Source: Hyphomonadaceae bacterium | Lineage (GTDB): Bacteria > Pseudomonadota > Alphaproteobacteria > Caulobacterales > Hyphomonadaceae | Direction: 5' to 3' | Assembly (NCBI GenBank): GCA_022760335.1 | Contig: JALEGE010000175.1 | Location: 1-42,652, forward strand | DNA length: 42,652 nt | Part shown: positions 3,152-37,257 of the stretch, piece by piece | How positions within the stretch are numbered: the first letter of the stretch is position 1 | Layout of the letters: every line of letters starts with the position of its first letter | Program-made: the position numbers and the translations under genes | Notes under the pieces: model-generated | What the model saw: the letters and a program-made list of their open reading frames with translations, nothing else | The model's database searches: none | What the model was told of the DNA's origin: nothing

Positions 3152-6100
3152 ATGCCCAACTCTCTGCCGACTTTGACTGTACCTGCAAATCTGGTCCTGC
3201 CAGATGGCGCCACGAATTACCTGGTCACCGGCTTGTCGGTTGCCGATGCCGATGATGACATTCTAACGGTCAGTCTCTCGCTTTCGGGATTTCTCACACT
3301 GGGCGTCACTGATGGCCTGATCTTCCTGCTGGGCGACGGGTTTGACGACACCCATATGGTGTTCAGCGGCACCGTGGCTGACATCAATGCGGCGCTGGCC
3401 TCGCTGACATATACCGACACGGGAGCGCCCGGCGATCTGGAAATCACTGTCAGCGATGCGGGCACGGCGCCGGTCAATTTCTCGCTCGCACCCGTCCTGT
3501 ATCTGCGCCAATACGATGAAAAAACAGGATTTGTTCTTGAGGGGACGGATTCAGAAGACCTGGCCGGGCGCGATGTCGAACTGATCGGCGATGTGAATGA
3601 TGATGGCATCGCGGACATTCTGATCAGCGCCATTGGCGGCGATGACAATGGCGCCGATTCCGGCGAGGCCTATGTCGTGTTCGGCACCGCGCTGGGTTTC
3701 CCGGAGACATTCCAGCTCTCTTCGCTGGATGGTACGAACGGTTTCAAGATCCGCGGCGCCGCCACGACCGATGCGCTGGGCCGCACGATTGCCGGCATTG
3801 GCGACATCAATAATGATGGCATTGAGGATTTCGCGGTCGGGGCGCGCTTTGCCGATCCGGGCGGGCGGGCGGATGCCGGCGCAGCCTATATCATTTTCGG
3901 GACCGATGCCGGTTTCCCGAGTGCACTTGAAGTCACCGACCTTGATGGCACGAACGGCTTTGTCGTTGAGGGCGTCACGGCCGGAGACCGCACCGGGCGC
4001 AGCCTGGCCGCGGCAGGTGATGTCAATGGCGATGGCATTGACGATTTCATTGTCGGCGCTCCCTTTGCAGATCCCAATGGCGGGGATTCTGGCGCGGCCT
4101 ATGTGATTTATGGCAAGGCCACCGCCTTCAGCGCGACATTCGACCCGGCCACTCTGGATGGCACCAATGGCTTTTCGATCTTCGGTGAAAACTCCGGCGA
4201 TACGGCAGGCCTGTCTATCTCGAGCGCAAGCGACATCAATGATGACGGCTTTGCCGATATTGTGATCGGCGCGCCGGGCGGCGACCCGGCTGCGGGTCTG
4301 GAAGGCGGCGAGGCTTATGTCGTTTATGGCGGTGATCCGCTGACGCCGGCCAACGTCTTCCTCTCCAATATTTCCTCTGAAATCGAAGGCAATGTCGGCT
4401 TCAAGATGAGCGGCCTGGCGGCAGGCGATCAGCTTGGTTTCGATGTCTCAATTGCTGGGGATTTCAATGGCGATGGGATCGACGACATCGTCATCACGGC
4501 GCCGTTCGCAGAAACCCTGGGCGTTCCCAATTCCGGCAGCGCCTATGTCATTTTCGGCACCGATGCAGGTTTCCCGGATGAAACCGTGGACCTTTCGGCG
4601 TTGGACGGCACCGATGGTTTCGTCCTCATCGGGCGCAGCGGTAACGGCAATACCGGGACATCGGTCCACAATGCCGGGGACATCAATAATGACGGGATCG
4701 ATGATCTGATCATCGGGACGCCGGGCATTGATGGCGCAGAGCCCGGGGCCGGCCAGACCTATATTGTTTTCGGCTCCGCGGATGGGTTCAGCGGAACCCT
4801 GCGGTTTAGCCAGATTGATGAGACTGAGGGCTTCACCATTGCCGGCCTCAATCTTCAGGATGCCAGCGGATTTGCAGTTGGCGGCGACCGCGATGTCAAT
4901 GGCGACGGCATTGATGATATCATCATCGGTGCTGGCGGGGCTGACCCGAACGGCAGTGCGTCGGGCGAAGCCTATGTCATCTTTGGCGGCTCGGACATCC
5001 AGACCCGCTATGTTTCGGAAAGCATTTCGGTCACGCTTGAAAATTTCGCGCCTGTTGCGACAGATGACATGCTGTTTGCCGCTGAGGATGGCCCGGCCAC
5101 CACAGGCAATGTCATGGGCAATAATGGCAATGGCAATGACAGCGATGCCAATAATGACGTTCTGACGGTTGTTGAGCTGAACGGGTTTGCGGCGAATGTC
5201 GGCCAGCAGATCACGCTGGCCTCTGGCGCCCTGCTGACCGTGAATTCCGATGGCACTTTCAGCTATGATGCCAATGGTGCCTTCGAGGCGCTTGGCACTG
5301 GCCAGACCGATACGGACAGTTTCACCTATACGATCAGCGATGGGCAGGGTGAAACCGCCACAGCGACTGCCACCGTGACCATATCCGGGGCCAGCGATCC
5401 CACCACCATCACGCTGCCCGGCGATCCAGACCTGATCAGCACCGGCGTGGTCGCGATTTCCGGCTTCTCGCTTGCCGATCCGGACCAGGGCGATCTGACG
5501 GTCCTGTTCTCGGCGGCCGGCACGATCACACTGGCGCAGACAACAGGTCTTGTCTTCCTTCAGGGCGATGGCAGCGATGACACTGTGCTGGAATTCACCG
5601 GCACGCTGGCCGACATCAATGCCGCGATCGCAACGATCGATTACACGCCGCCTCTTGGTGATGTCGTAGACACGATCTCGCTGCAGTCCGGCGGAACCCA
5701 GGCCTCGATAATCTTCGGCACCGGCACGGGCGAGACCCTTACCGGCAGCGCCGATGATGCCGATATTTACGGCTTTGAGGGCGATGATGAGTTGAATGGC
5801 GGGGCTGGCGATGAATTGCTCGTCGGTGGCCTTGGCGCCGATACGCTGCTCGGCGGCGATGGCGACGATACGCTTGTCTTAGACGATGATGACATCCGCA
5901 GCGATATCAATGGCGCCATCAATCTCGGCGGTGTTGGCACCGATACGCTGGTGATGGAGGCTGGCAGCCAGTTCATCACCAATACGCTGGCCAGTTACGG
6001 TTTTGAGATCTTCCGCGGCGCCGATGGCAATGACCGCGTGCGCGGCAATCTCAATTCGGTCGACTATGATCTCGATGGCGGGGCCGGTGATGATGAACTT

Positions 6101-7324
6101 ACCGGCAATGGCGGCAATGATATCCTGCGTGGTTGCCTGGGCAGCGACCTGATGCGCGGCAATGACGGTAACGACACGATCTATCTCGACAGCGACGATA
6201 TTCGCAGCGACGAGAGTGGCGCGATCGATCTTGGCGGGGCTGGCTATGATATGCTGGTCATGGAGGCCGGCTCGCAATTCGTCACCAATGGGCTGGGTGC
6301 GTATGGTTTCGAGGCCTTTGTCGGCGCCGATGGCAATGACCGTGTGCGCGGCAATGTCGGCTCTGTGGACTATGAACTGAATGGTGGGGCTGGCGATGAC
6401 ACGCTGACAGGCAATCGTGGCCGCGACATCCTGATGGGCGGTGAGGGCAATGACCTGCTTGATGGCTCCGGCGGACGTGACACCATGTTCGGCGGTGCCG
6501 GCGACGACACCATCATTCTCAGCAATGCTGACTTTATCCGCGACAGCGAAGGCGCTGCGCTGGATATGGGGAATGAGGGGCGGGACACGCTGGTCATGGC
6601 CAATGGCAGCCGTTTCATCACGAATGGCCTCAGTGTCTATGGCTTCGAAGTCTTCATCGGCGCCAACCGTGATGATCGCGTGCGGGGTAACCTGGCGAAT
6701 GTGGAGTATGATCTCGACGGCCAGGGCGGCGATGACACGCTGACCGGAAATAATGGCGCTGATAGGCTGACCGGCGGTACTGGAAATGACACGCTGGATG
6801 GTGCCGGGGGGCTCGATCGCTTTGTGTTTGATGCCAGTCATGTCGGTACTGACACCGTTGCGTCCTTCTTCCTTGGCGAAACCGTGGAACTGACCGGCTT
6901 TGGCTATGTCAGTGCAGCAGAGGCCGCGGCGGATTTCACCCAGGATGGCGGCAATGTCGTATTCAGCAATGGCGGTGTCGTGGTGACCTTCCTCAGTGCG
7001 CTGCTATCTGATGTTGTTGCGGGCATAGAAATTGATGGTGAGCCGGTGCCGCCAGCGCCGAGCGCGAGTCTTGTGGATGCCTTGTTGGGCCCCTTGGATG
7101 CGTTGCTCGATAACCTGTTCGAGTTTGGCGGCTTGGGCGAATCTCCGAATCCAGACGGCAGTGACGCATACGACGCGATGGAGTTTCTGGCCCCGAAAGC
7201 CCAGTACAGTGATACTGTGCTACGCCAGGAACATCATGACCATATTGATCAGCCGGATCTCATGATTGATGCACAGGACTGGCTTCCCAATGACCCGACA
7301 GATGCGTTCAGCTTCATCAGCTAA
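3152..7324 (+). CDS. Large secreted RTX protein with FG-GAP beta-propeller and cadherin-like domains
   Basis: A 1390-residue acidic, glycine/aspartate-rich protein predicted to be exported by a type I system and to fold with calcium outside the cell. Domain order: a cadherin-like N-terminal domain (about 20-115); seven FG-GAP/integrin-alpha-type repeats with Ca-binding loops such as DVNGDGIDDFIVG (about 120-615), enough for one seven-bladed propeller; a VCBS/Ig-like domain beginning NFAPVATDD (about 630-750); a second copy of the N-terminal cadherin-like domain (about 765-850); RTX nonapeptides such as GGDGDDTL interleaved with three copies of a 65-residue module (910-1188); and a non-repetitive C-terminus of about 150 residues that should hold the secretion signal. 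There is no Sec signal peptide. No T1SS genes are in the window. The exact role (adhesin, surface layer or matrix protein) cannot be read from the sequence. Confidence 0.9.
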   Translation: MPNSLPTLTVPANLVLPDGATNYLVTGLSVADADDDILTVSLSLSGFLTLGVTDGLIFLLGDGFDDTHMVFSGTVADINAALASLTYTDTGAPGDLEITVSDAGTAPVNFSLAPVLYLRQYDEKTGFVLEGTDSEDLAGRDVELIGDVNDDGIADILISAIGGDDNGADSGEAYVVFGTALGFPETFQLSSLDGTNGFKIRGAATTDALGRTIAGIGDINNDGIEDFAVGARFADPGGRADAGAAYIIFGTDAGFPSALEVTDLDGTNGFVVEGVTAGDRTGRSLAAAGDVNGDGIDDFIVGAPFADPNGGDSGAAYVIYGKATAFSATFDPATLDGTNGFSIFGENSGDTAGLSISSASDINDDGFADIVIGAPGGDPAAGLEGGEAYVVYGGDPLTPANVFLSNISSEIEGNVGFKMSGLAAGDQLGFDVSIAGDFNGDGIDDIVITAPFAETLGVPNSGSAYVIFGTDAGFPDETVDLSALDGTDGFVLIGRSGNGNTGTSVHNAGDINNDGIDDLIIGTPGIDGAEPGAGQTYIVFGSADGFSGTLRFSQIDETEGFTIAGLNLQDASGFAVGGDRDVNGDGIDDIIIGAGGADPNGSASGEAYVIFGGSDIQTRYVSESISVTLENFAPVATDDMLFAAEDGPATTGNVMGNNGNGNDSDANNDVLTVVELNGFAANVGQQITLASGALLTVNSDGTFSYDANGAFEALGTGQTDTDSFTYTISDGQGETATATATVTISGASDPTTITLPGDPDLISTGVVAISGFSLADPDQGDLTVLFSAAGTITLAQTTGLVFLQGDGSDDTVLEFTGTLADINAAIATIDYTPPLGDVVDTISLQSGGTQASIIFGTGTGETLTGSADDADIYGFEGDDELNGGAGDELLVGGLGADTLLGGDGDDTLVLDDDDIRSDINGAINLGGVGTDTLVMEAGSQFITNTLASYGFEIFRGADGNDRVRGNLNSVDYDLDGGAGDDELTGNGGNDILRGCLGSDLMRGNDGNDTIYLDSDDIRSDESGAIDLGGAGYDMLVMEAGSQFVTNGLGAYGFEAFVGADGNDRVRGNVGSVDYELNGGAGDDTLTGNRGRDILMGGEGNDLLDGSGGRDTMFGGAGDDTIILSNADFIRDSEGAALDMGNEGRDTLVMANGSRFITNGLSVYGFEVFIGANRDDRVRGNLANVEYDLDGQGGDDTLTGNNGADRLTGGTGNDTLDGAGGLDRFVFDASHVGTDTVASFFLGETVELTGFGYVSAAEAAADFTQDGGNVVFSNGGVVVTFLSALLSDVVAGIEIDGEPVPPAPSASLVDALLGPLDALLDNLFEFGGLGESPNPDGSDAYDAMEFLAPKAQYSDTVLRQEHHDHIDQPDLMIDAQDWLPNDPTDAFSFIS
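5879..6073 (+). repeat. RTX-interrupting 65-residue module, copy 1
   Basis: Encodes residues 910-974 of the RTX protein. The pattern is DDIRSD, then LGG, DTLVMEAGSQFITN, YGFE, F.GADGNDRVRGN and YDLDGG. It sits between blocks of RTX nonapeptides but is not itself a nonapeptide repeat. Confidence 0.85.
6185..6379 (+). repeat. RTX-interrupting 65-residue module, copy 2
   Basis: Encodes residues 1012-1076 of the same protein. It is colinear with copy 1 without gaps (DDIRSDESGAIDLGGAGYD, SQFVTNGLGAYGFEAF, NDRVRGNVGSVDYEL) and exactly the same length. Confidence 0.85.
6518..6715 (+). repeat. RTX-interrupting module, copy 3 (divergent)
   Basis: Encodes residues 1123-1188. It is more diverged at the start (ADFIRDSEGAALDMG) but keeps DTLVMANGSRFITNGLSVYG, FIGAN and DDRVRGN..NVEYDL. 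It is one residue longer than copies 1 and 2. Confidence 0.8.
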
Positions 7325-10952: not shown

Positions 10953-12029
10953 ATGCGGGTAGAGTATATTGCAGTTGTATCCGGCCTGATGGATGTTGCC
11001 AGCTTCCTGGCCGCAAGCGCGCGCCATGGCGCCGGAGTCGCGCCAGATCGTATTGTCCTGGCCCTGTTCGGGCGGGAGGTGTCTCTGCCGGAGGCCCTCC
11101 AGACCGAGTTCTCCGAGATTGTCGCACGCGCCTTCCCGCAGGCAGAACTCGTCATTGTGCCGCCCCATCGTGTCGAGCTGAAAACTTTCGTTTCGGAAGG
11201 CTATGACGTGCCGGCTCTTGCCCGCAATGCCGACAGGCGCGTGGTCTTTAGCGCGGCGTTGCAATCGCGGTTTACGCGCAGTTTCCTGTCCTGGCTCTCG
11301 CCCGACGAACTTGTTTTCTTCGACAATGGACTTTCAAGCTATGCGGACTGGCATGCTAACACGCTCGATCATGTCATCTCTGCGGGTGTGCCGCGGCCAA
11401 GCGCAGCCTATCTCAGCTTGCATCCCACCCTCGATGTGCCCGCCTATTTGCGGGACGTTCCCGTAGAGGTCTTGCGCAAGAAGGATTTCGCTCATGCTTT
11501 CAAACGCTTGCGCGCCGGCGGGACAGAGCGGCCGCCGGGCACCTGGCTGCCGGGCCAAGTCATTGTCGGCACCAGTCTGTTTCGCACTGGGCGGATCAGT
11601 TGGGAGGCTGAGCGCGCGCTCTATCTGCGCCTGATCACGCGGCTGAAGCGGTCGGGGGAAACCGATATCCTCTTCAAGGCTCATCCGCGCGCGCTAACCC
11701 AGCCGCTGATCACTCCCGAGGATGGTGTCGCGGTCTTCGCCTCTACGGTGCCGTTGGAGGCCTATGTTCGCCCGAACAGTGTCGGTACAGTCTATAGTAT
11801 TTCTTCCTCCGCGCTGATCACCATGCCGCAGTTTTATGGCTGGCAGGCCAGGCGGCTTTCCGATCCCGACACGCGCAAATTGTTTGAACAACAACGCGCC
11901 ATCAAGGGCCTGGAATGCGCGGGTGCGATGACCTGGATGAAAGATGTTTGGCTCGGGCCGGCCACCATGAAAGGCATCAGACCTATCGGTCGATCAGAAC
12001 GGGCGCAGACGGATATCTGGCATCAGTGA
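10953..12029 (+). CDS. Putative glycosyltransferase resembling the sialyl/polysialyltransferase (GT-B) superfamily
   Basis: A 358-residue protein that I read as a CMP-sugar-dependent glycosyltransferase. It lacks GT2 or GT4 signatures but has three spaced motifs in the order seen in bacterial sialyl-, polysialyl- and Kdo-type transferases: an acidic-Asn/Asp-Gly block LVFFDNGLSSY (residues 121-130; canonical is ED/EDG), FKAHPR (241-246, HP motif) and YSISSSAL (281-288, serine motif). The family assignment is therefore inferred from motif order, not overall similarity. The neighbouring minus-strand operon encodes a CMP-sugar synthetase-like enzyme, which would supply a suitable donor. The start at 10953 has no strong Shine-Dalgarno sequence. 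A GT2 gene follows 61 bases downstream. The 262-base region upstream is shared with the divergent AlgI-like gene. Confidence 0.6.
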   Translation: MRVEYIAVVSGLMDVASFLAASARHGAGVAPDRIVLALFGREVSLPEALQTEFSEIVARAFPQAELVIVPPHRVELKTFVSEGYDVPALARNADRRVVFSAALQSRFTRSFLSWLSPDELVFFDNGLSSYADWHANTLDHVISAGVPRPSAAYLSLHPTLDVPAYLRDVPVEVLRKKDFAHAFKRLRAGGTERPPGTWLPGQVIVGTSLFRTGRISWEAERALYLRLITRLKRSGETDILFKAHPRALTQPLITPEDGVAVFASTVPLEAYVRPNSVGTVYSISSSALITMPQFYGWQARRLSDPDTRKLFEQQRAIKGLECAGAMTWMKDVWLGPATMKGIRPIGRSERAQTDIWHQ

Positions 12030-12090: not shown

Positions 12091-13092
12091 GTGGACTTTG
12101 CCTTGCCCTTTTTCTCCGTCGTCATCGTCAATTATAATGGCGGGAGTTATCTGCAGGGGGCAGTCGACAGTCTGAAGGCGCAAACCGATCAGGATTTCGA
12201 ACTGTTCGTGGTCGACAATGCCTCCAGCGATGGCTCGGCCGAGACGCTGGACCTTTCGGGCCTGCCCGCCGCCCGCCTGATGGTGCAGGATGACAATCTC
12301 GGCTTTGCCGAAGGCAACAATGTCGCCGCGCGCATGGCCGGTGGGGACTGGCTGGTGCTGCTTAACCCGGATGCCGTAGCCGCGCCGGACTGGCTGGCGA
12401 GGCTGCGCGAAGCAACCCAGCATTATCCCGAGACCGCCATGTTCGCCTCGGCCCAGATCGCGCTGGAAGATGACGGCCTGCTGGATGGGGCGGGCGATTG
12501 CTATCTCGGCGTCGGCATTCCCTGGCGCGGGGGGTTTGGCCTGCCGGTGGCGCGTTTACCGGCCGATGAAGGCGAAGTGTTCAGTCCCTGCGGGGCGAGC
12601 GCGGCCTACCGGCTTGACTGTTTTCTTGGCGCGGGCGGGTTTGACGAGAGTTTTTTCTGCTTCTGCGAAGATGTGGACCTTGCCTTCCGCCTGCGCCTTG
12701 AGGGTCATCGCTGCATCTTCCTGCCCGGCGCGGTGGTGCACCATGCCGGCGGGGCGATTTCCGGGCGCGCGAGCGCGTTTTCGGTGCATCTCGGGGCGCG
12801 TAACCGCATCTGGACCTATGTGAAAAACACTCCGCCGCAGCTCTTATGGCTAACCCTGCCGGGCGCTGTGTTCATGAACCTCGCCATCCTCGCGCGCGGC
12901 CTGCAGACCGGGCGTTTCGGGCCGACCTGGGCCGGGTTGAGAGATGCCTTTGCCGATTTGCCGCGCGTGCTGAAGCAGCGGCGCGAAATCCAGGCCGGCC
13001 GGCGCGCAAGCTTCAGCCAGGTGACGCGCGCGATGAGCTGGAACCCGCTGAAAATGCTCCGCCGCAGGCCGCATCTGGTGCGGTTGCGTTAA
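12091..13092 (+). CDS. GT2 family glycosyltransferase, rhamnosyltransferase (WbbL)-like
   Basis: A 333-residue inverting glycosyltransferase of the GT-A fold. The N-terminus FFSVVIVNYNGGSYL, the block VVDNASSDGSAE, the DxD-like region LLNPDAVAAPDW and the late acceptor/base segment FFCFCEDVDLAFRLRLEG are typical of the rhamnosyltransferase-like GT2 group. The start is the GTG at 12091 (MDFALPFFSVV); no nearby ATG fits. The acceptor and the sugar transferred cannot be predicted. Its stop codon overlaps that of the convergent GT2 gene: the sequence TTAA at 13089-13092 ends both. Confidence 0.88.
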   Translation: MDFALPFFSVVIVNYNGGSYLQGAVDSLKAQTDQDFELFVVDNASSDGSAETLDLSGLPAARLMVQDDNLGFAEGNNVAARMAGGDWLVLLNPDAVAAPDWLARLREATQHYPETAMFASAQIALEDDGLLDGAGDCYLGVGIPWRGGFGLPVARLPADEGEVFSPCGASAAYRLDCFLGAGGFDESFFCFCEDVDLAFRLRLEGHRCIFLPGAVVHHAGGAISGRASAFSVHLGARNRIWTYVKNTPPQLLWLTLPGAVFMNLAILARGLQTGRFGPTWAGLRDAFADLPRVLKQRREIQAGRRASFSQVTRAMSWNPLKMLRRRPHLVRLR

Positions 13093-14108
13093 CAGAATAC
13101 GATCTGGCTGATCTGTGTTTCCGGGGCCAGCGGTGTCAGCTCCAGCATGCCCGCCTTGCCGCGTGGCCAGCTGAAGGGCAGGGCCATGTCCGGCGCGGCC
13201 TCGCCAAGCTCCATGCCATCGCAGGCCACGCGAACGGACGCCGTCCCGGTGATAGTGAGCGTAGTGATATCGCGATCATAAAGTATGAAAGGCGCGCGCA
13301 CCGCGGTTTCAAACGGGTGCTCTGTGTAGAAATAGCCGGTCATGGCAGGTGTGATGGCCGGCGCTTCGCCCTGGCGGCTCGCCCGGTGATAGCGCCAGAC
13401 GCCGATCAGGGATTTCAGCGCGGTAAGACTGCCCTCAGTGCGCCGCACGAGACCGGCGATTTCCAGTGCGCGGCGCGTGTTGAATTGCGCGGTCTTGGTG
13501 CCTGCATCCATGACGACGCCGGACAGCGCGGCCTCCAGGCTGGCAAAGCGCGCGCCGGCCAGATGCAGGCGCACCCAGAGGTCCCAGTCCATGGTGTAGT
13601 GTAGCCCGGTATTCAGCCAGCCCACCTCTGCCAGCGCGTCGCGGCGAACGAAAGTCGAGGGCTGGGAAATCGTGTTGCTGCGCAGGAGAAGCGCGGAGGG
13701 CGGCGCGACGCTGGGATGGGCGCCGAGATGGTGAAACTCCGGCGTGACGAGGATGCTCTGGCCGGTGACGGCAGCGCAGTCCGGGCTCGCTTCGAAGGTT
13801 GCAGCGACGCGGGCGAGTGCGTCGGGGAAGAGGAAATCATCCACGTTCAGCCAGCCATAAACCTCGCCTTCCACCGCGTCCCAGCCTTCCTGAATGGCGG
13901 CGGCCTGCCCGGCATCTGGCCCGGTGCGGTGATAGGCGGTGAGCGGCTGCAGCGGCGCGAGCGCCTCGGCCATGCGCGCATCGCCGGAGGCATCCAGCAG
14001 GGCGAGGCGGAGGTCTACATCCTGCGCCAGCAGCGAGGCCACGGCGGAGGGCAGGGCCGGGTTCCACGCCCCGATTGGGACGGAAAGGACGAAGCTCGGC
14101 CCGGCCAT
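13089..14108 (-). CDS. GT2 family glycosyltransferase
   Basis: A 339-residue GT-A enzyme: FVLSVPIGAWNPALPSAVAS at the N-terminus, then AGQAAAIQEGWDAVEGEVYG and the DxD-type WLNVDDFLFPDAL, followed by YTMDWDLWVRLHLAG. The open frame extends upstream to 14402, but that part overlaps the SMP-30 gene and reads as a low-complexity arginine/serine shadow; the ATG at 14108, four bases after the SMP-30 stop, gives a normal GT2 N-terminus. It is the last gene of the acid-sugar operon and presumably adds a residue to the same glycan. About 100 C-terminal residues after the catalytic domain form a probable beta-rich tail (YDRDITTLTITGTASVRVAC) of unknown role. Confidence 0.85.
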   Translation of the reverse strand: MAGPSFVLSVPIGAWNPALPSAVASLLAQDVDLRLALLDASGDARMAEALAPLQPLTAYHRTGPDAGQAAAIQEGWDAVEGEVYGWLNVDDFLFPDALARVAATFEASPDCAAVTGQSILVTPEFHHLGAHPSVAPPSALLLRSNTISQPSTFVRRDALAEVGWLNTGLHYTMDWDLWVRLHLAGARFASLEAALSGVVMDAGTKTAQFNTRRALEIAGLVRRTEGSLTALKSLIGVWRYHRASRQGEAPAITPAMTGYFYTEHPFETAVRAPFILYDRDITTLTITGTASVRVACDGMELGEAAPDMALPFSWPRGKAGMLELTPLAPETQISQIVFC

Positions 14109-14112
14109 GGGC

Positions 14113-15009
14113 CTAGACCTTTCCGCCCCAGAGCTGGGTCGGCTGGCCGGTATGTGCGGTCTTGTAGACGAAGAGATTGCCCGAGCGCGGGGCGGCCTGG
14201 AGCTGGTCTTCGGAGAGCTCAGCGCGCGCGGTGGTGACGGCCAGAATGTCGAGCTCCGGCCCGCCGAAGCAGGGGCAGGTGACATGCGGGGCCGGGATGT
14301 CGATCTTTCCGAGCGGCGCGCCATCCTCGGCGAAAACAGAGACGCAGGACCCGCCCCAGACCGCGCTCCAATAGAGCCCCGCCGCATCGCACACCGCGCC
14401 ATCCGGCCCGCCTGTGAGGTGCTCCTTGCCGATGAAATTCGCCGGCTCGCCTAGCACGCCGCTTGCCGCATCGAACGGATAAGCCTTCACCCGCAGTTTC
14501 GGGCTGTCGGCATGGTAGAGCCGGGTGGCATCCGGGCTCCAGCAGAGGCCATTGGAGATGTGGATGCCGGAAAAATGCTGGCGCAGGCCGCCATCCTTGT
14601 CGAGGCTGTAAAGCGCGCCCTTGTCCGTGCCGCCAGCGGCCTCGGCATCTTCCACCATGGTGCCGACCCAGAAGCGGCCATCCGGGCCGGTGCGGCCATC
14701 ATTGAAGCGCTCGCCGGGGGAAAGGTCGGGCTGGTGCAGCCAGCTCAGCGCGCCGCTCTCAATATTGTATGCGGCGATGCCCTTATCGAAGGCGGCGATG
14801 ATGATGCCCGGATCACGTGTCAGCGACAGGCTGCAGAGCCTGTGCGGCACATCCCGCGTCTCAAGGCGCGCGCCGTCCAGCGTCCAGACATGCAGGCGAC
14901 GCCCCAGAATATCGGCCCAGATGAACGCCCCGCGCCGCGCATCCCAGACAATCCCCTCGCCGAGCGTATCGCCTGTTTCAACTTCGGCTATCAGTTCGGC
15001 GGTGATCAT
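14113..15009 (-). CDS. SMP-30/gluconolactonase family protein
   Basis: A 298-residue six-bladed beta-propeller of the SMP-30/regucalcin/gluconolactonase family, which usually hydrolyses sugar-acid lactones with a divalent metal. Visible features: LGEGIVWD with the metal-binding glutamate (about residue 18), FNDGRTGPDGRFWVGTM with the Asn/Asp pair, and HISNGLCWSPDATRLYHAD with a further metal-binding Asn and Asp. The start at 15009 has a good Shine-Dalgarno (GGAGGACC). In most genomes this family serves catabolism. Here it lies between glycosyltransferase and nucleotide-sugar genes, 4 bases from the GT2 gene and 24 from the SDR gene, so a role in making an acidic sugar is more likely. The substrate is unknown. 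Confidence 0.88.
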   Translation of the reverse strand: MITAELIAEVETGDTLGEGIVWDARRGAFIWADILGRRLHVWTLDGARLETRDVPHRLCSLSLTRDPGIIIAAFDKGIAAYNIESGALSWLHQPDLSPGERFNDGRTGPDGRFWVGTMVEDAEAAGGTDKGALYSLDKDGGLRQHFSGIHISNGLCWSPDATRLYHADSPKLRVKAYPFDAASGVLGEPANFIGKEHLTGGPDGAVCDAAGLYWSAVWGGSCVSVFAEDGAPLGKIDIPAPHVTCPCFGGPELDILAVTTARAELSEDQLQAAPRSGNLFVYKTAHTGQPTQLWGGKV

Positions 15010-15033
15010 TCTGGTCCTCCCTGCGCCAGCGCG

Positions 15034-15795
15034 TCAGGTGCGCCCGGCATCGATCACGAATCCCTGGCCCGTGATCATGCGCGCAAGGGGGCTGGCAAGG
15101 AAGAGTGCGAGATGGGCGACATCTTCCGGCAGCAAATCATCCTTCAGCGCGCACATGGCCTTCCACTCGGCTTCGGCCTCGGGCGTGAGCCAGAGCTGGC
15201 GCTGTTTCTCGGTCACCACCCAGCCGGGGATGATGGCGTTCACGCGGATACGGTCAGGCCCCAGCGCCTCGGCGAGCGACTTTGTCAGGCCAATAATGCC
15301 CGCCTTGGCGGTGGTGTAGGTGATCAGATCGGCCGGGCCGAGCAGGGCGTTGAGCGAGCTGAAATTCACGATCGCCCCCCCGCCCGCCGCTTTCAGATGG
15401 GGCGTGGCGGCCTTTGAGGCGAAGATGACCGGGTCGAGATTGATGGCGAGATTGCTCCGCCAGGTCTCCGGCGTGATGTCATCTATCGTTTCGCGCTGGT
15501 CATTGGCGACATTGTTGATCAGCGCGTCGAGCCCGCCGAGTTGGCCTGCGCCATCATCCACACTGTCCTGCAGCGCGCCGGCATCGCTGGCATCGGCCTT
15601 GAGGAACAGGATGGGCGCGGCGGCGCTTTGTGAAAGTCGCGCTGCCAGGGCTTCGCCGGCGCTCTCATTGATATCGTTGAACGCCACGCCCGCACCGAGG
15701 GCGGCGAACTGGCAGACGAGTTCCGCGCCGATGCCGGTCGCGCCGCCCGTGATGAAGACGCGCTTGCCGGTGAAATCGAGCTGCGGCGCTGTCAT
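15034..15795 (-). CDS. Short-chain dehydrogenase/reductase (SDR)
   Basis: A 253-residue classical SDR. It has the cofactor loop TGGATGIG (about residues 16-23), an acidic residue after beta-2 in FNDINES that favours NAD(H), an NNVAN block, the catalytic serine in FSSLNA and the YTTAK motif (Tyr and Lys), and ends with the common SDR C-terminus MITGQGFVIDAG. It probably oxidises or reduces a sugar hydroxyl or lactol. Its pairing with the SMP-30 lactonase recalls oxidative sugar pathways in which an SDR makes a lactone and a lactonase opens it; that link is inference. The gene is 3 bases from the 2-hydroxyacid dehydrogenase stop, so the two are co-transcribed and probably translationally coupled. 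Confidence 0.9.
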   Translation of the reverse strand: MTAPQLDFTGKRVFITGGATGIGAELVCQFAALGAGVAFNDINESAGEALAARLSQSAAAPILFLKADASDAGALQDSVDDGAGQLGGLDALINNVANDQRETIDDITPETWRSNLAINLDPVIFASKAATPHLKAAGGGAIVNFSSLNALLGPADLITYTTAKAGIIGLTKSLAEALGPDRIRVNAIIPGWVVTEKQRQLWLTPEAEAEWKAMCALKDDLLPEDVAHLALFLASPLARMITGQGFVIDAGRT

Positions 15796-15798
15796 GTC

Positions 15799-16728
15799 TT
15801 ATCCGTTCAGGAAACCGGCGATTTTCTCGATGGCGAGATTGGAGACCTTGCGCACCGCATCCACCGTGTTGGAGCCATTATGGGTGCCGAAAATCGTATT
15901 GTTGAACTGGCGCAGCGGATTGTCGGGGGCGAGCGGTTCAACCTCGAACACATCCAGGCCCGCCGCGCCGACCGTGCCGTCTTGCATGGCTTTTACCAGC
16001 GCGGTCTCGTCAATGATCGGGCCGCGCGAGACATTTACCAGGCGCACGCCGGGCTTCAGGCGCGGGAGAAGCTCATGATTGAACATGTGCTTGGTCTGCG
16101 GGGTGAGCGGGCAGGTGAAGATCAGGAAATCGGCCTCTTCCAGCCGGTTCGGCCAGGTTTCCGGCTCCACATCTATGCCGTCTGCCGGTTTGAAGAAGGG
16201 ATCATAGGCGATGACCTTCATGTCCGTGGCGCGCAGGCGTTTTGCCGTCGCGCGGCCGATATCGCCGAAGCCGACCAGGGCGGCGGTCTTGTTCCAGAGC
16301 GAAATGCCCGGCGGTTTCGGCCATTTATTCTCATTTCGCACGGCGCGGTCGATCTCGAACAGGTGACGCGTCAGGCCGAGCACATAGCCCATGGCGACAT
16401 CGGCGACTTCCTGGCCGAACACACCCGGCGTGTTGGTGATCGGAATGCCGAGATCCTTGCAGGCTTCGAAGTCGACATTGTCGGTGCCGACGCCCCATTT
16501 CACCGCCGCTTTGAGTTTGCCGGCCTTGCCAGCCTCAAAGACGCGGCGTGTGGCCGGATCGTCGCCGATAATCCAGCCATCATAATCGGGCAGGACTTCG
16601 ACCAGCTCGTCCTGGGTCATCACCTGGGTGACCTGTGCGGGTACGCCTTCAAGCCCGAATTTCGGGAAGATGGGCAGGAATTCTTCGATCAGGCCCAGCA
16701 TGGGCGGGCAGGTGACCAGGACTTTCAT
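15799..16728 (-). CDS. D-isomer-specific 2-hydroxyacid dehydrogenase
   Basis: A 309-residue NAD-dependent oxidoreductase interconverting a 2-keto acid and a D-2-hydroxy acid. The nucleotide-binding loop is VGFGDIGRATAKRL; the catalytic arginine lies in VNVSRGPIIDE, the glutamate in the DVFEVEPL region and the histidine in FGTHNGSNT. The frame is open up to 16830, but the ATG at 16728 (MKVLVTCPPML) gives the expected beta-strand start and lies 25 bases after the cytidylyltransferase stop. The family includes phosphoglycerate and erythronate-4-phosphate dehydrogenases, but the operon context (CMP-sugar synthetase-like, SDR, lactonase) argues for a sugar-acid substrate, which I cannot name. Confidence 0.9.
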   Translation of the reverse strand: MKVLVTCPPMLGLIEEFLPIFPKFGLEGVPAQVTQVMTQDELVEVLPDYDGWIIGDDPATRRVFEAGKAGKLKAAVKWGVGTDNVDFEACKDLGIPITNTPGVFGQEVADVAMGYVLGLTRHLFEIDRAVRNENKWPKPPGISLWNKTAALVGFGDIGRATAKRLRATDMKVIAYDPFFKPADGIDVEPETWPNRLEEADFLIFTCPLTPQTKHMFNHELLPRLKPGVRLVNVSRGPIIDETALVKAMQDGTVGAAGLDVFEVEPLAPDNPLRQFNNTIFGTHNGSNTVDAVRKVSNLAIEKIAGFLNG

Positions 16729-16753
16729 CGGGCAGGGCCTTCTTGAAGTGGGA

Positions 16754-17470
16754 TTATTCGGGAAGGGTTTCGCCGGCGGCCACGCGCATGAGCAGCGATT
16801 CGGCCATGAACCAGTCTTCCGGCTCATCAATATCGACCGATTCCAGCGGCGGGGTGACGAAGAGCTGCGGTTTCACGCCGATGCGCGCCTCGGTCTTGGC
16901 GAAGCTGTCGGCGGAGAAGACATAGCCGACGGAATTTTCTTCCATATAGGGCGGCAGGTCCTGGGTGCGGATGAGATTGGCCGGGTCGTGATTGATCGGC
17001 GCGCCCTCGGGCGTGTAATAGCGCGTATGGTGCTTGTTGACGGTGAACACGCTGTCGGCGCTGCCGCTGGAAAGCCCGGTGAGATACGCCTCATACATGG
17101 CGCGGATGGTTTTCGGGCTGAGCAGCGGATTGGTCGTGTGCGTCATGAAATACGCGTCGGAGGCGACATTTGCGACATCATCGGCCAGCACCAGGTTCAT
17201 CGAGACGAAATCGCCGCAGATTTCCGGCTTGCGGTCGCGGATCATGACGCGGCCATCGCCATCGCCGTCATTCAGACCATTTTCGGCGAGGATCTCGCGC
17301 GCATCCGTGTTGATGACCACCTTATCGATGGCTTCGACCTCAAGCATCGTGTCGAGAATCCAGCGGAAGAGGGGCTTGCCCGCGATTTGGCGGAAATTCT
17401 TCGATTTCACCCGCGCGCTATGGGCCTTCATTGGCAGCAGCGCGACCAGTTTATAGCTGTTTTCAGGCAT
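16754..17470 (-). CDS. Acylneuraminate/CMP-sugar cytidylyltransferase family protein
   Basis: A 238-residue nucleotidyltransferase of the NeuA/KdsB family, which activates 2-keto-3-deoxy sugar acids as CMP derivatives. The CTP-binding loop is LLPMKAHSARVKSKNF (residues 11-26), a variant of the usual P-A-R-G-G-S-K. It is followed by IAGKPLFRWILDT, VVINTDAREI, the Thr/Asn-Pro block THTTNPLLSP, SVFTVNKHHTRYY and the late acidic motif ESVDIDEPEDW, which fits metal binding. The variant loop suggests a subfamily apart from sialic-acid-specific NeuA. No NeuB, NeuC, KdsA or epimerase gene is recognised in the window, so the sugar activated is unknown. It is the second gene of the six-gene operon. Confidence 0.85.
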   Translation of the reverse strand: MPENSYKLVALLPMKAHSARVKSKNFRQIAGKPLFRWILDTMLEVEAIDKVVINTDAREILAENGLNDGDGDGRVMIRDRKPEICGDFVSMNLVLADDVANVASDAYFMTHTTNPLLSPKTIRAMYEAYLTGLSSGSADSVFTVNKHHTRYYTPEGAPINHDPANLIRTQDLPPYMEENSVGYVFSADSFAKTEARIGVKPQLFVTPPLESVDIDEPEDWFMAESLLMRVAAGETLPE

Positions 17471-17607
17471 GATGAGGAACTCCAGGGGCGCAGGTGGCCA
17501 GCGCGGTGCGCCCGAAACAGGTCGAAGATGATTTCAGGTGAGCGTATGCGAAAATCTGCCTGCGCTGTCCAGCAAGCACCCCGCGACAAAGACTATCGGA
17601 AACGCGC

Positions 17608-18567
17608 TTAAGCCGCGCGGCGCTGGACCACTTCACGCTCGCGCAGCATGGCCGGCTCGGTACGTGGCCCATGCTGTTTCGGAAGCTGGGGATAGAAATA
17701 GGCTTCCTTCTGGGCGCGCGACAGGCGGCGATGCTCGTTATGGCCGCGATACGTGCCCAGATACTGCATGAAGCGGAAGCCGAAAATCTCCCGGAAACGG
17801 CGCAGGAACTGTTTCTGGCGCTTGGCCGCGAGAAGATCGAAGAAGACCCCGGCGGAGAAATAACGCACCGCATCAAACCGCGTCACATGCACTTCCGGCA
17901 TGATGTCGCGCAGCACCAGCGCTTCGCGATAATAGCGCTTCTGCGTCTGGGCGAGGGTCTCTTCGTGAATATGCGTCACGGCGGCTGAAGCGACATAGCC
18001 GACGCGCCCGCCGCCTTCCACGACCTGCCGGCCGAGCACCATGTCTTCCAGGCCGGTCACATCCTCGTCGAAACGGTATTTTTCCCAGGTCGAGCGCTCA
18101 ACGGCAGCATTGGCATTATTACAGAAGAAGCCTCTTTGCGGCACCGCATCGAATTCCGGGAAATATTTGGCGAACAGACGGTGCTCGGAGAATTTTGACA
18201 CCTCATGGCCGAGCTGGCGCCCATAGGTGTATTGTGCGGTGCCGTCGATCAGCGGCTGGATCAAGTCCTGCAGCCAACGATCATGGGTCGGCACGCAATG
18301 CGCAGAGATGAAGACCAGATACTTGCCATTGGCCGCCTCGCAGCCCCAGTTCAGGGAGCGTCCGAAGGTAAATTGTGACTTGGGAATGTGAACAATGCGG
18401 CAGTCATGGGATTCGGCAATCTCGATTGTGCGGTCTGTAGATCCGGAATCCACCAGCACAATCTCATAGTCCAGATTATCCAGTTTCTGCGAGCGGCAGG
18501 CGGTAAGAGCATCATCGAACCACTTCTCTTCGTTCAGCGCCCTGAACACTACGCTCACGTCCACCAT
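17608..18567 (-). CDS. GT2 family glycosyltransferase
   Basis: A 319-residue GT-A glycosyltransferase. The start VDVSVVFRALNEEKWFDDAL, the block VLVDSGSTDRTIEIA, FGRSLNWGCEAANGKYLVF and the acceptor-side segment TGLEDMVLGRQVVEGG are typical of rhamnosyltransferase-like GT2 members. The C-terminus is basic (the segment RGHNEHRRLSRAQKEAYFY), consistent with peripheral membrane attachment. It is the promoter-proximal gene of the acid-sugar operon. The start ATG at 18567 has GGAGA a short distance upstream. A 137-base gap to the cytidylyltransferase holds nothing I recognise. Confidence 0.88.
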   Translation of the reverse strand: MVDVSVVFRALNEEKWFDDALTACRSQKLDNLDYEIVLVDSGSTDRTIEIAESHDCRIVHIPKSQFTFGRSLNWGCEAANGKYLVFISAHCVPTHDRWLQDLIQPLIDGTAQYTYGRQLGHEVSKFSEHRLFAKYFPEFDAVPQRGFFCNNANAAVERSTWEKYRFDEDVTGLEDMVLGRQVVEGGGRVGYVASAAVTHIHEETLAQTQKRYYREALVLRDIMPEVHVTRFDAVRYFSAGVFFDLLAAKRQKQFLRRFREIFGFRFMQYLGTYRGHNEHRRLSRAQKEAYFYPQLPKQHGPRTEPAMLREREVVQRRAA

Positions 18568-21020: not shown

Positions 21021-21062
21021 AACGCCATGCAGGGGCGTCGTAGTAAAGTTCAGGACGGCTTG

Positions 21063-21989
21063 ATGACGAATCTTCTTCAGGGCCTCACCATCCCTCCCGG
21101 ACTTCAAAAGAAGGCCGAAACTGTCTCGCGCATTACCGGCCGGTCACCAGAAGATATTCTGGAAGATGCCATTGAGCGCGCAGTCGCCGCGCATTTCCGC
21201 CCGCTTTTGCTGGTCTTGCAGATGGGCAAGGTGGCCTCCACAGCGATCGCTGAAGCACTGGATACGACCCGGCTATGGGATGTGGTCCATATTCATCATC
21301 TTGATGCAGGCCGACTGGAGACCATGGAAACTCGTAATGCCGAGCGTGGGGTCGAAAATGCGCCGAACTTGGTGCGTTCTCGCGCGGTGCTGGATTGGCT
21401 CGCCCAGGATCCGGGCCAGGTTCAGATTGTTAGCGCTGTGCGGGATCCGGTGGCGCGAAACCTGTCAGCCTTCTTTCAGAATGCAACGAGTTTTCTGTCC
21501 ATTGAAGAGGGTAAAGTTCGAAACCCCGCAGAGGAAGTGGCCGATATTTTCGTGCGCCGGTATCGCCATTCCAATTCGCTGGACTGGTTTGACCGAAACA
21601 TCCGGCGCGTGTTCCGACTGAATGTCTATACCAAGCCGTTTGATCATGAACGTAAGTGCCTTGTTGGGGAAAATCGGCAATGCCGCTTGATTGTGGTGCG
21701 CGCGGAAGATTCCGATGAGATCAAATCCCAGGCCCTTTGCCGGCATCTCGGTTTGAAATCGCTTGAGATCAGTCGCGCGAATGTGGGGCGCGAGAAGATG
21801 TATTCTGATACTTATGAAGCGGTGCGCACCATTCTGAAAATGCCCGAGGCAATCCTGGACGAGCTGTACTCCTCTCAGCTGGCGCAGCATTTTTACACTG
21901 GTGCTGAGCTGGAGCAGTTCCGCGCGGGTTGGCTGAGGGCCAGCCCGGAAGATGCAGGTTTATCGGTCGCGGGAGGCTTTGGGCAATGA
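21063..21989 (+). CDS. Sulfotransferase-like / capsular polysaccharide synthesis family protein
   Basis: A 308-residue protein related to the gene at 24978 on the other strand. Shared blocks are QMGKVAST (P-loop, residues 54-61; QMGRVGST in the relative), an RDPVARNLSAFF segment, WFDRNIRRVF, the RAEDSDE block and a late AQHFYTG. The P-loop and Arg-Asp-Pro segment fit a PAPS-dependent sulfotransferase or the NKWYS-type capsule family; I cannot separate these. The first 45 residues (PPGLQKKAETVSRI, then GRSPEDILEDAIERAV) look like a ribbon-helix-helix-type segment, absent from the relative. The frame is open from 21027, but the ATG at 21063 has AGGACGG ahead of it and is preferred. The stop overlaps the ABC permease start (ATGA). 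Confidence 0.68.
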   Translation: MTNLLQGLTIPPGLQKKAETVSRITGRSPEDILEDAIERAVAAHFRPLLLVLQMGKVASTAIAEALDTTRLWDVVHIHHLDAGRLETMETRNAERGVENAPNLVRSRAVLDWLAQDPGQVQIVSAVRDPVARNLSAFFQNATSFLSIEEGKVRNPAEEVADIFVRRYRHSNSLDWFDRNIRRVFRLNVYTKPFDHERKCLVGENRQCRLIVVRAEDSDEIKSQALCRHLGLKSLEISRANVGREKMYSDTYEAVRTILKMPEAILDELYSSQLAQHFYTGAELEQFRAGWLRASPEDAGLSVAGGFGQ

Positions 21990-24977: not shown

Positions 24978-25745
24978 TTACCCGGAAGCAGGCATATCGA
25001 ATTCTTGGCTTGCCCATTTTCTGCGCATGCCCTGGATTTCCTCATCAGTGTAGAAATGCGAGACGAGGCGGCTGTTCAACACGCTGTCGACAAGTTTTTG
25101 TGATGGGTTGAACAGGTGTTTGAATTTTTCATATTCCGGGCCGAATTTGCCCGACCCCACATTATCCTCCGTGAAAGTCACCGTGTCGACTTCCAGGAAA
25201 TCGCAAATCGCGGCGCATTTCTCTTCGTCGCTGTCCTCAACGCGCAGCACCAGAACAGAGATGCCATCCTTTTGAATGACCAGGCGCTTTTTCTCATGAC
25301 TGAACGGTGTGTTGAAAATCGTGAAGCCGAACACATCGCGGATTTCTTCGGAGAACCAATGGACAGGGATCTTGTGATCATAAGCGGCAAAACGCTCAAG
25401 CAGTTCTTCAGCCTTGGCATCCTCGCGCGCCGCCTTGCTGCGGAAGCCAAAGGAATCGAGATTATTGAAAAAGGCTGAGACATTGCGCGCCATTGGTTCG
25501 CGCACCAGTGAGATGATCTTGATCTTGGGTTCCAGGCCCAGAACTGTCGAGATGACCTCGAAGCTGTCATAGACGTGGTTTGGCATCTTCAGCCGGCCAT
25601 TGCGCCGGCGTGTGACATATTGGTGTAATTTCTGACGATTCAGAATGTGCGTGTGATAGGTGCGATACTCCGGCAAATCCTTGACGGCGTTGTAAATGGA
25701 TGTCGACCCAACGCGGCCCATTTGGTGGATAAGCAGGGGTACCAT
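24978..25745 (-). CDS. Sulfotransferase-like / capsular polysaccharide synthesis family protein
   Basis: A 255-residue relative of the protein encoded at 21063: IHQMGRVGSTSIYNAV (P-loop near residues 7-22), SLVREPMARNVSAFFNN, HWFSEEIRDVFGF, VLRVEDSDEEKCA and VSHFYTDEEIQGM align with it in order. The role is inferred as transfer of a sulfate group during capsule synthesis. The ATG at 25745 follows GAGAGGAAA at good spacing; an upstream TTG gives five more residues but is less likely. It is 49 bases upstream of the second minus-strand sulfotransferase gene. The two related proteins flank the exporter genes on opposite strands, which suggests duplication followed by divergence. Confidence 0.68.
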   Translation of the reverse strand: MVPLLIHQMGRVGSTSIYNAVKDLPEYRTYHTHILNRQKLHQYVTRRRNGRLKMPNHVYDSFEVISTVLGLEPKIKIISLVREPMARNVSAFFNNLDSFGFRSKAAREDAKAEELLERFAAYDHKIPVHWFSEEIRDVFGFTIFNTPFSHEKKRLVIQKDGISVLVLRVEDSDEEKCAAICDFLEVDTVTFTEDNVGSGKFGPEYEKFKHLFNPSQKLVDSVLNSRLVSHFYTDEEIQGMRRKWASQEFDMPASG

Positions 25746-25956
25746 ACCGTTTCCTCTCAATCAGAACTCTACAGTGTTGTATTCAAGGCCAATTGAAATC
25801 AGAGCTCAAAGGGCTGTGAAATAACTTCGATGGCCTCTATTCAGCATGCTCTTACGGCATTAACCAGTTATCGTATGTTCACTGAAAATGCGAAACACTC
25901 AATCGTCATTGACACGTCTTCCGACATCGTTTTCGCGCAGCGAAACAAACAAGATT

Positions 25957-37096: not shown

Positions 37097-37257
37097 CGGC
37101 ACCACTTTTCGCATTCCATTGCCACAAGACACAAGGCGTTTGGCTGGCCCGGCTGGCGAATGGTCCCCGAAGAGAAAAAGCCATGAGAGCGAGCCGGCGT
37201 AAAGCCGTGGCATGTTTTTCTGTACGCTTTGTATACCCCGTTTGGATTTCGTGATGC

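Follow-up and report, generated by a model that had tools for sequence, protein, structure and literature searches.

A tentative oxidative route to a CMP-activated 2-ulosonic acid encoded in a glycan locus of a Hyphomonadaceae bacterium

An operon of a Hyphomonadaceae bacterium could plausibly, though the reading is tentative, direct synthesis of a CMP-activated 2-ulosonic acid destined for a surface polysaccharide, with no condensing enzyme involved. In the proposed pathway, an SDR would oxidize a free aldose at C1 to a lactone, an SMP-30 protein would open the lactone to an aldonate, and an NAD-dependent D-2-hydroxyacid dehydrogenase (HADH) would oxidize C2 of the aldonate to yield a 2-ketoaldonate. 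A NeuA-like cytidylyltransferase would then use CTP to activate the cyclic 2-ketoaldonate at its anomeric hydroxyl, and a glycosyltransferase, GT2c, would transfer the sugar from the resulting CMP-2-ketoaldonate onto the growing glycan. The proposal is built on gene order, gene families, intact catalytic residues, conservation of modules, a genome without NeuB, and an altered sugar pocket; from these we infer the substrates of the enzymes, which way HADH works, which aldose enters the pathway, retention of the 3-hydroxyl in the product, and the role of GT2c. More tentatively still, the product may represent a novel nucleotide-sugar class, a CMP-2-ketoaldonic acid with its 3-hydroxyl intact. 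It would arise through two oxidations and a hydrolysis starting from a free aldose, would involve no carbon-carbon bond formation dependent on PEP or pyruvate, and would be used by a GT2 enzyme that has lost the D-x-D motif. In the literature searched, neither the operon gene set nor a sugar of this kind was described. A work cited in PMC10433991 reports, by its title, a 4-deoxy-2-hexulosonic acid in the E. coli K3 capsule.

Organization of the Operon

All six operon genes are on the minus strand of the window (the whole 42,652-nucleotide stretch that was analyzed), in the order GT2c, cytidylyltransferase, HADH, SDR, SMP-30 lactonase, and GT2b, as the preliminary description had it when placing the four enzyme genes in one operon between two GT2 genes. 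Two plus-strand genes precede them in the coordinates:

17608..18567, minus strand: GT2c, a GT2-fold glycosyltransferase and core partner of the cytidylyltransferase, with S-x-H replacing the usual D-x-D
16754..17470, minus strand: NeuA-fold cytidylyltransferase with altered sugar-binding residues (H111, N114, R150, and T169)
15799..16728, minus strand: HADH, a dedicated NAD-type D-2-hydroxyacid dehydrogenase retaining catalytic R235, E262, and H283
15034..15795, minus strand: XylB-like SDR of the aldose 1-dehydrogenase type (253 bits, below the model cut-off of 400)
14113..15009, minus strand: SMP-30/gluconolactonase-type sugar lactonase retaining metal and substrate residues
13089..14108, minus strand: GT2b, a family 2 glycosyltransferase and the final gene of the operon
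12091..13092, plus strand: GT2a, a family 2 glycosyltransferase that converges on the operon and is present in some related loci
10953..12029, plus strand: PF07388 (alpha-2,8-polysialyltransferase-like) protein, found in only 2 of 51 loci

Two gene starts were corrected. HADH probably starts at the ATG at 16728 and not at the TTG further upstream at 16830, and GT2b probably starts near the ATG at 14108 and not at 14402, a start that would overlap the lactonase gene by 290 bases. With these starts, gaps are 25 bases between cytidylyltransferase and HADH, 3 between HADH and SDR, 24 between SDR and SMP-30, and 4 between SMP-30 and GT2b; GT2c is 137 bases upstream of the cytidylyltransferase. A scan for promoters and terminators yielded no more than in shuffled sequences. 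As also described before, no NeuB-, KdsA-, or NeuC-like gene is present among 30 ORFs scanned with Pfam, which cover the window up to its final 2.6 kb. HpcH aldolases are likewise absent from these 30 ORFs and from a direct search of the window's ORFs, and an aldolase route inside the operon was rejected.

Conservation across Genomes

Gene context was compared across 51 loci, no two of which share at least 1 kb at 95% identity. Loci L006-L009 and L011 are outside this set and were taken as contigs of L085, L088, L061, L094, and L107. The wide-flank comparison leaves out 17 weaker matches (L025-L041), four matches without a locus, and eight other weaker places; L019-L041 have no match to GT2c, HADH, SDR, or SMP-30. 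HADH is directly after the cytidylyltransferase in 34 of 38 loci of the same subtype (34 of the 36 with sequence beyond the cytidylyltransferase) and in none of nine outgroup loci, a linkage beyond what chance would give; it is absent from subtype loci L085 and L096. GT2c adjoins the cytidylyltransferase in 33 of 38 subtype loci, whereas SDR is present in 24 and lactonase in 17. Hyphomonas sp. BRH_c22 (L010), also outside the 51 loci, has a cytidylyltransferase followed by HADH with no match to GT2c, SDR, or SMP-30, and with it included, HADH would be at 35 of 39 loci and GT2c at 33 of 39.

Distances of the cytidylyltransferase and HADH are strongly correlated (0.93 over 34 loci; none of 1,000 permutations as high), as are those of SDR and SMP-30 lactonase (0.93 over 14 loci), and the correlation between cytidylyltransferase and SDR is 0.48 (21 loci). 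The conserved core is GT2c, cytidylyltransferase, and HADH, with SDR and lactonase forming a separable supply module. The preliminary description had suggested searching other genomes for the four-gene set, and partners of the cytidylyltransferase are indeed conserved, but conservation as a unit extends to the core and not to SDR and lactonase. The latter two are lacking near the core in many loci, so the aldonate would come from elsewhere in those loci.

Named carriers include Parvularcula dongshanensis DSM 102850 and Thalassovita gelatinovora. In Thalassovita, kdsA is followed by an SDR-lactonase pair at a distance of 6 kb from the cytidylyltransferase, and this pair might serve something else there. 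A family of neighbors in L087 and L100 was considered as a substitute for SDR and lactonase and rejected; it is a DUF2793 protein, also encoded in the window at 34673-36109.

Properties of the Encoded Enzymes

The cytidylyltransferase (model pLDDT 93.4) best matches the fold of a CMP-Kdn synthetase (9t4z_A; Z 24.9, rmsd 2.1 over 218 residues), ahead of IspD and TarI (Z no higher than 20.0) and KdsB (Z 19.3), and is 20 to 26% identical to solved NeuA-type enzymes. With synthetases of CMP-Kdn and CMP-Neu5Ac it shares the fold, the CTP-site Lys-Asn, an invariant Arg80, and the catalytic Asp pair, but it has His in place of the sugar-binding Gln and Thr in place of the carboxylate-binding Arg. In all 40 subtype rows of the alignment, CTP-site residues K24 and N25 and metal-binding D213 and D215 are present, as are H111, N114, R150, and T169. 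The Gln and Arg with which sialic-acid CMP synthetases bind sugar (Q104 and R165 of meningococcal NeuA) are absent from all 40, replaced by H111 and T169. In the meningococcal enzyme, the positions equivalent to H111, N114, R150, and T169 are thought to bind the sugar hydroxyl and carboxylate (PMC2901514). The best curated model is PseF, at 60.9 bits against a cut-off of 205.7, and the enzyme does not resemble a standard sialic- or legionaminic-acid enzyme. KdsB has the same general fold and reaction type, but structural similarity is lower, a probable Kdo cytidylyltransferase is encoded on another contig of the genome, and no KdsA is among the scanned window proteins. The alignment holds 45 of 52 sequences and omits L050, L052, L053, L102, L103, L124, and the second copy in L121; the tree omits the same seven. 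L109 was put in the outgroup by its residues. L120, from an E. coli plasmid that also carries a NeuB-family gene, has a very long branch and is outside of the 40-row subtype.

HADH retains its catalytic Arg, Glu, and His and an NAD-type Asp in 34 of 34 loci. It has the family, catalytic triad, and NAD site in common with phosphoglycerate dehydrogenase, glyoxylate reductase, and 2-ketogluconate reductase, but is a dedicated subfamily located after the cytidylyltransferase; among solved structures, phosphoglycerate dehydrogenases are the nearest to it but do not establish what HADH acts on. The preliminary description had HADH adjusting the 2-keto/2-hydroxy state. As the most tightly kept partner of the cytidylyltransferase, it is now read as the likely source of the 2-keto group.

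The SDRs fall into two lineages, XylB-like and PRK07231/PRK06398-like, and both score best on models of aldose or glucose 1-dehydrogenases, all below cut-off. With no curated cut-off reached, the substrate class is treated as a lead from sequence. Lactonase residues are intact in 17 of 17 loci. In pairing an aldose 1-dehydrogenase-type SDR with a neighboring SMP-30 lactonase whose residues are intact, the arrangement is that of a XylB-XylC-type module, which carries out the first oxidative steps of pentose catabolism (Weimberg/Dahms). However, no dehydratase relative is in the operon loci, and a cytidylyltransferase within a glycan locus seems to be the destination of the aldonate. An earlier suggestion that SDR and then lactonase lead to a sugar acid is supported by families of the aldose-oxidation type, with the amendment that the pair is separable from the core; the substrate is predicted.

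GT2c is the probable transferase for the CMP-sugar. Its fold match is unspecific; the nearest solved structures include enzymes that use UDP- and GDP-sugars, and no user of CMP-sugars was recognized among the 50 structure matches listed. The PF07388 protein is possibly a second user.

Alternative Explanations

A conventional route to sialic, legionaminic, or pseudaminic acid, its remaining genes lying elsewhere, would fit the NeuA fold, the score to PseF, and the presence of NeuB in 10 of 36 carrier genomes. It is very improbable. The other 26 carriers, including this genome, have no NeuB; in this genome (97% complete) no match was found by a search that finds the family in 9 of 14 control genomes, and the pathway is refuted here unless NeuB is in the missing 3%. 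In G449, NeuB has a second, weaker cytidylyltransferase match close by (1.4 kb) and is 860 kb away from the subtype copy, and the altered sugar pocket also argues against this pathway. The outcome that the preliminary description had named as refuting, a standard sialic- or legionaminic-acid enzyme whose complete pathway is encoded elsewhere in the genome and whose three neighbors are not conserved with it, did not emerge from the searches. A phosphonate CMP route was rejected; the best match to PEP mutase is 25.6 bits against a cut-off of 319.55, a search in which all 14 control genomes also fall short of the cut-off, so the control is no proof of sensitivity.

Relatives with an aldolase bear on the strongest competitor, which we consider unlikely: that the product is a CMP-2-keto-3-deoxy acid, with the aldonate from SDR and lactonase passing to an unlinked dehydratase and HADH having another task. 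HpcH is in 4 of 51 loci, none of which has the dedicated HADH. In three (an Acuticoccus plasmid, L044, and L045), an HpcH aldolase of the 2-keto-3-deoxy-acid type is directly before a cytidylyltransferase of the same subtype as the operon's, and this could mean that the substrate of the cytidylyltransferase is a 3-deoxy acid. These clusters would rely on carbon-carbon bond formation, in contrast to sugar oxidation in the operon; no functional description of them was found in the literature searched. In the fourth, L046, HpcH adjoins another, TSP-bearing cytidylyltransferase-like gene at a distance of 6.8 kb from the subtype copy, and we are unsure that it is an aldolase-type locus; the idea of repeated swaps between aldolase and oxidation in the tree rested on L046 and was withdrawn. 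In the search for relatives, queries for L114, L115, L129, L130, and L131 consisted of the longest reading frame of each locus, which was not always the intended protein; a repeated HpcH search returned the same four loci. The genome does have three ILVD_EDD genes (contigs C123, C108, and C152), but relatives of their products are absent from the 51 loci (E 1e-8), and a 3-deoxy product leaves HADH, the most strictly kept partner, without a job.

HADH would have a job if it supplied hydroxypyruvate or another small 2-keto acid to an aldolase elsewhere and the aldol product were activated, consistent with its likeness to phosphoglycerate dehydrogenase and to glyoxylate or hydroxypyruvate reductases, the three HpcH genes that the genome has on other contigs, and a generic HADH near HpcH in three of the four HpcH loci (directly after the cytidylyltransferase in Acuticoccus). 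But the mutual exclusion of HpcH relatives and dedicated HADH, together with an unexplained SDR-lactonase pair, makes this improbable. D-2-Hydroxyacid dehydrogenase chemistry is reversible, and the cytidylyltransferase might instead activate something other than an ulosonic acid, for example a 2-hydroxy acid formed by HADH reduction. Such a compound is compatible with the Thr found where, according to PMC2901514, meningococcal NeuA has the residue that pairs with the carboxylate of the sugar. We regard it as a slim prospect, given a closer fold match to CMP-Kdn synthetase than to IspD or TarI, retention of the metal-binding Asp pair, and an Asp in HADH that fits NAD rather than NADP.

Implications

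To our knowledge, CMP-activated sugars (Kdo and sialic, legionaminic, and pseudaminic acids) all arise from condensation of PEP with a sugar. If true, the oxidative route proposed for the operon would be a second logic for making them, by stepwise oxidation of an ordinary sugar and not by joining two pieces. It would also explain orphan "acylneuraminate cytidylyltransferase" annotations in alphaproteobacteria. Named strains carry the gene set, allowing direct testing, and the pathway predicts that surface glycans of alphaproteobacteria would include an acidic sugar that has so far gone unrecognized.

The operon and its glycan locus

The genome (3.5 Mb, 215 contigs, 97% complete) carries the operon on contig C104, the window:

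18567-17608, minus strand, GT2c, family 2 glycosyltransferase
17470-16754, minus strand, NeuA-fold CMP cytidylyltransferase
16728-15799, minus strand, D-2-hydroxyacid dehydrogenase (HADH)
15795-15034, minus strand, SDR, aldose 1-dehydrogenase-like
15009-14113, minus strand, SMP-30 lactonase
about 14108-13089, minus strand, GT2b, family 2 glycosyltransferase

Gaps between the five genes from the cytidylyltransferase to GT2b measure 3 to 25 bases, and GT2c lies 137 bases upstream of the cytidylyltransferase. The gene end points of the preliminary description stand; among the gene limits, only the longest-ORF starts of HADH and GT2b are placed too far upstream.

The operon sits in a surface-glycan locus, with GDP-mannose pyrophosphorylase-like and phosphomannomutase-like genes, gmd and fcl for GDP-fucose, an ABC exporter, putative sulfotransferases, NKWYS proteins, and MptE-like proteins. 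Two NKWYS (PF10364) proteins (21027-21989 and 24978-25760) and more sulfotransferase-like genes suggest that the polysaccharide is sulfated. MptE-like proteins (PF01973, a family that presumably includes Maf-type glycosyltransferases) are encoded at 32021-34579 and 36275-37213, and recur in 22 of 51 related loci at the match threshold used. Flanking the glycan locus, at 3152-7324, is a 1390-aa protein with FG-GAP, RTX calcium-binding, and cadherin-like repeats that is probably secreted to the surface.

Absence of NeuB and a changed sugar pocket

The operon was proposed to reach a CMP-activated acid without NeuB, KdsA, or NeuC; the alternative is an ordinary sialic or legionaminic acid pathway elsewhere in the genome. 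NeuB had no match in this 97% complete genome, and the same family was detected in 9 of 14 control genomes. Contig C211 has a stronger CTP_transf_3 match (129.2 bits), probably the Kdo enzyme KdsB. Among 36 genomes carrying the cytidylyltransferase or a relative, this one included, 10 have a NeuB match and 26 have none. In G449, the one NeuB-positive carrier of the 10 whose NeuB neighborhood was viewed, NeuB has a second, weaker cytidylyltransferase match as a near neighbor (1.4 kb), the subtype gene being 860 kb away.

The predicted model of the cytidylyltransferase (pLDDT 93.4) is closest to PpNeuA, a CMP-Kdn synthetase (Z 24.9). Other NeuA structures score Z 20.1 to 23.5 and IspD, KdsB, and TarI 20.0 or less, such that the last NeuA rows are tied with the first IspD row. 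All 40 rows of the subtype have His111, Asn114, Arg150, and Thr169, whereas outgroup loci L048, L049, L051, and L109 have Gln, Ser, Phe, and Arg at these positions. In the first three of these outgroup loci, the cytidylyltransferase directly follows a gene of one family (f20), whose L049 member was identified as NeuB. A cytidylyltransferase in an E. coli plasmid glycan locus (L120, 7995-8663) has His111 and Thr169 and lacks Asn114 and Arg150; a NeuB-family gene is nearby, so His and Thr alone do not establish a route free of NeuB.

By profile alignment, the positions changed in the subtype include Gln104 and Arg165 of the meningococcal enzyme. In the published account of that enzyme, docking gives a salt bridge between Arg165 and the sugar carboxylate, the Arg165 Ala mutant is inactive, and Gln104 has a role in sugar binding and catalysis (PMC2901514). 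With these positions changed, the subtype enzyme should act on another acid or bind its acid in a different manner. Arg150 is a candidate replacement for the lost Arg.

Enzymes of the family 2 glycosyltransferases usually carry D-x-D. All 34 GT2c copies have S-x-H at this site, and S88 and H90 are invariant in 29 alignment rows. With its single phosphate, a CMP donor may not require a metal; S-x-H thus fits a user of a CMP-sugar, which we infer GT2c to be. Its predicted model (pLDDT 90.0) matches GT2 enzymes in general, with no pointer to CMP among the matches listed. Also in the locus is a PF07388 polysialyltransferase-like protein (10953-12029; 38.4 bits, cut-off 23.3), a possible second user of a CMP-sugar.

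Gene neighborhoods and two modules

Among the named relatives of the cytidylyltransferase are members of Hyphomonadaceae and Parvularculaceae. Its distribution is patchy, with copies of at least 64% identity in 27 of 200 genomes of the order, this one included. Our comparison took in 51 loci (38 with the window's subtype, 4 with an HpcH gene, and 9 outgroup), using search profiles built from the loci's own members, so the counts describe these loci and are no test of independence. Within the 38 subtype loci, HADH directly follows the cytidylyltransferase in 34 (2 of the other 4 end at the cytidylyltransferase) and GT2c adjoins it in 33, with SDR (24; 22 on the same strand and within 3 kb) and lactonase (17; 15 within 3 kb) being less regular. 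None of the nine outgroup loci has an adjoining HADH, an adjoining GT2c, or a lactonase; they have distant HADHs in two (3.7 and 7.5 kb), one weak SDR, and one weak GT2c-like match 2.4 kb off.

In three Rhodobacterales plasmids, GT2c overlaps the cytidylyltransferase gene, which overlaps or touches HADH; in two of them, SDR and lactonase are elsewhere on the stretch. In one of these two, Thalassovita, they are a pair that directly follows kdsA, beside a KdsB-type gene distinct from the subtype gene. Upstream of the core in L087 (6532-8457), L100 (7652-9511), and L101 (10308-12362) is a 619-684 aa protein without a Pfam match; its gene adjoins the cytidylyltransferase in the latter two, which both lack GT2c.

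Pairwise distances of the cytidylyltransferase correlate with those of HADH (0.93, 34 loci) and GT2c (0.82, 30 loci), as do those of SDR with lactonase (0.93, 14 loci). Correlations of the cytidylyltransferase with SDR (only 0.48, 21 loci) and lactonase (0.64, 17 loci) are lower; 2 of 1000 permutations reach the last value and none reach the other four, and the genomes' shared descent adds to all of them. Judged by these distances, cytidylyltransferase/HADH/GT2c and SDR/lactonase are two predicted modules.

SDRs fall in two lineages. The best model is D-xylose 1-dehydrogenase for those of the window, L107, L108, and L117 (250 to 289 bits, cut-off 400) and a generic glucose 1-dehydrogenase for those of L089, L122, and L043, with aldose dehydrogenase second for L089 and L043; no SDR reaches any model cut-off, so these assignments serve as leads. 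Recruitment of two aldose-dehydrogenase-like lineages to the side of a lactonase speaks for aldose oxidation as the requirement of the locus.

Catalytic residues, counted at the motif positions usual for each family, are largely kept: Arg, Glu, His, and the NAD-type Asp of HADH in 34 of 34, five expected lactonase residues in 17 of 17, and Tyr, Lys, and the NAD-type Asp of SDR in 21, 20, and 16 of 21.

Proposed supply of the acid by oxidation or aldol condensation

In the proposed route, an aldose would be oxidized to a lactone, the lactone opened to an aldonate, the aldonate converted to a 2-ketoaldonate, and the latter activated to CMP-2-ketoaldonate. Counting against it are the many loci without SDR and lactonase, two loci without HADH, and aldolase relatives that may work on 3-deoxy acids. 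Three ILVD_EDD and three HpcH genes are on contigs other than C104, so an unlinked gene may supply a pathway step. Contig C108 has a second lactonase-like match and an ILVD_EDD dehydratase (L114 and L127; 5318-6115 and 16471-17412), perhaps a separate catabolic sugar-acid pathway. A search of open-access papers for the gene set and for short ulosonic acids in glycans yielded no account of a pathway of this kind.

Four of the 51 loci hold an HpcH relative. In L044, L045, and L119 (an Acuticoccus plasmid), the HpcH aldolase gene directly precedes the subtype cytidylyltransferase. In L046, the neighbor of the HpcH gene is a TSP-bearing cytidylyltransferase-like gene other than the subtype copy, which lies 6.8 kb away, making L046 unsure as a locus of this type. 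All four have an epimerase-like gene, and L045, L046, and L119 a HAD phosphatase. None has GT2c, SDR, lactonase, or a dedicated HADH (at least 230 bits to that of the window, as in 34 loci); three have a generic HADH (L045, L046, and L119; 126 to 133 bits), directly after the cytidylyltransferase in L119. The tree groups L044, L045, and L119 as a single clade (98/90) nested within the 40-row subtype (98/95), with a weakly supported attachment point (88/55). We found no functional description of this arrangement in the open-access literature searched. These three loci, with L046 unsure, would represent a second NeuB-free arrangement beside the subtype cytidylyltransferase. Read most simply, both arrangements would supply one kind of activated acid, one through aldol condensation and the other through oxidation.
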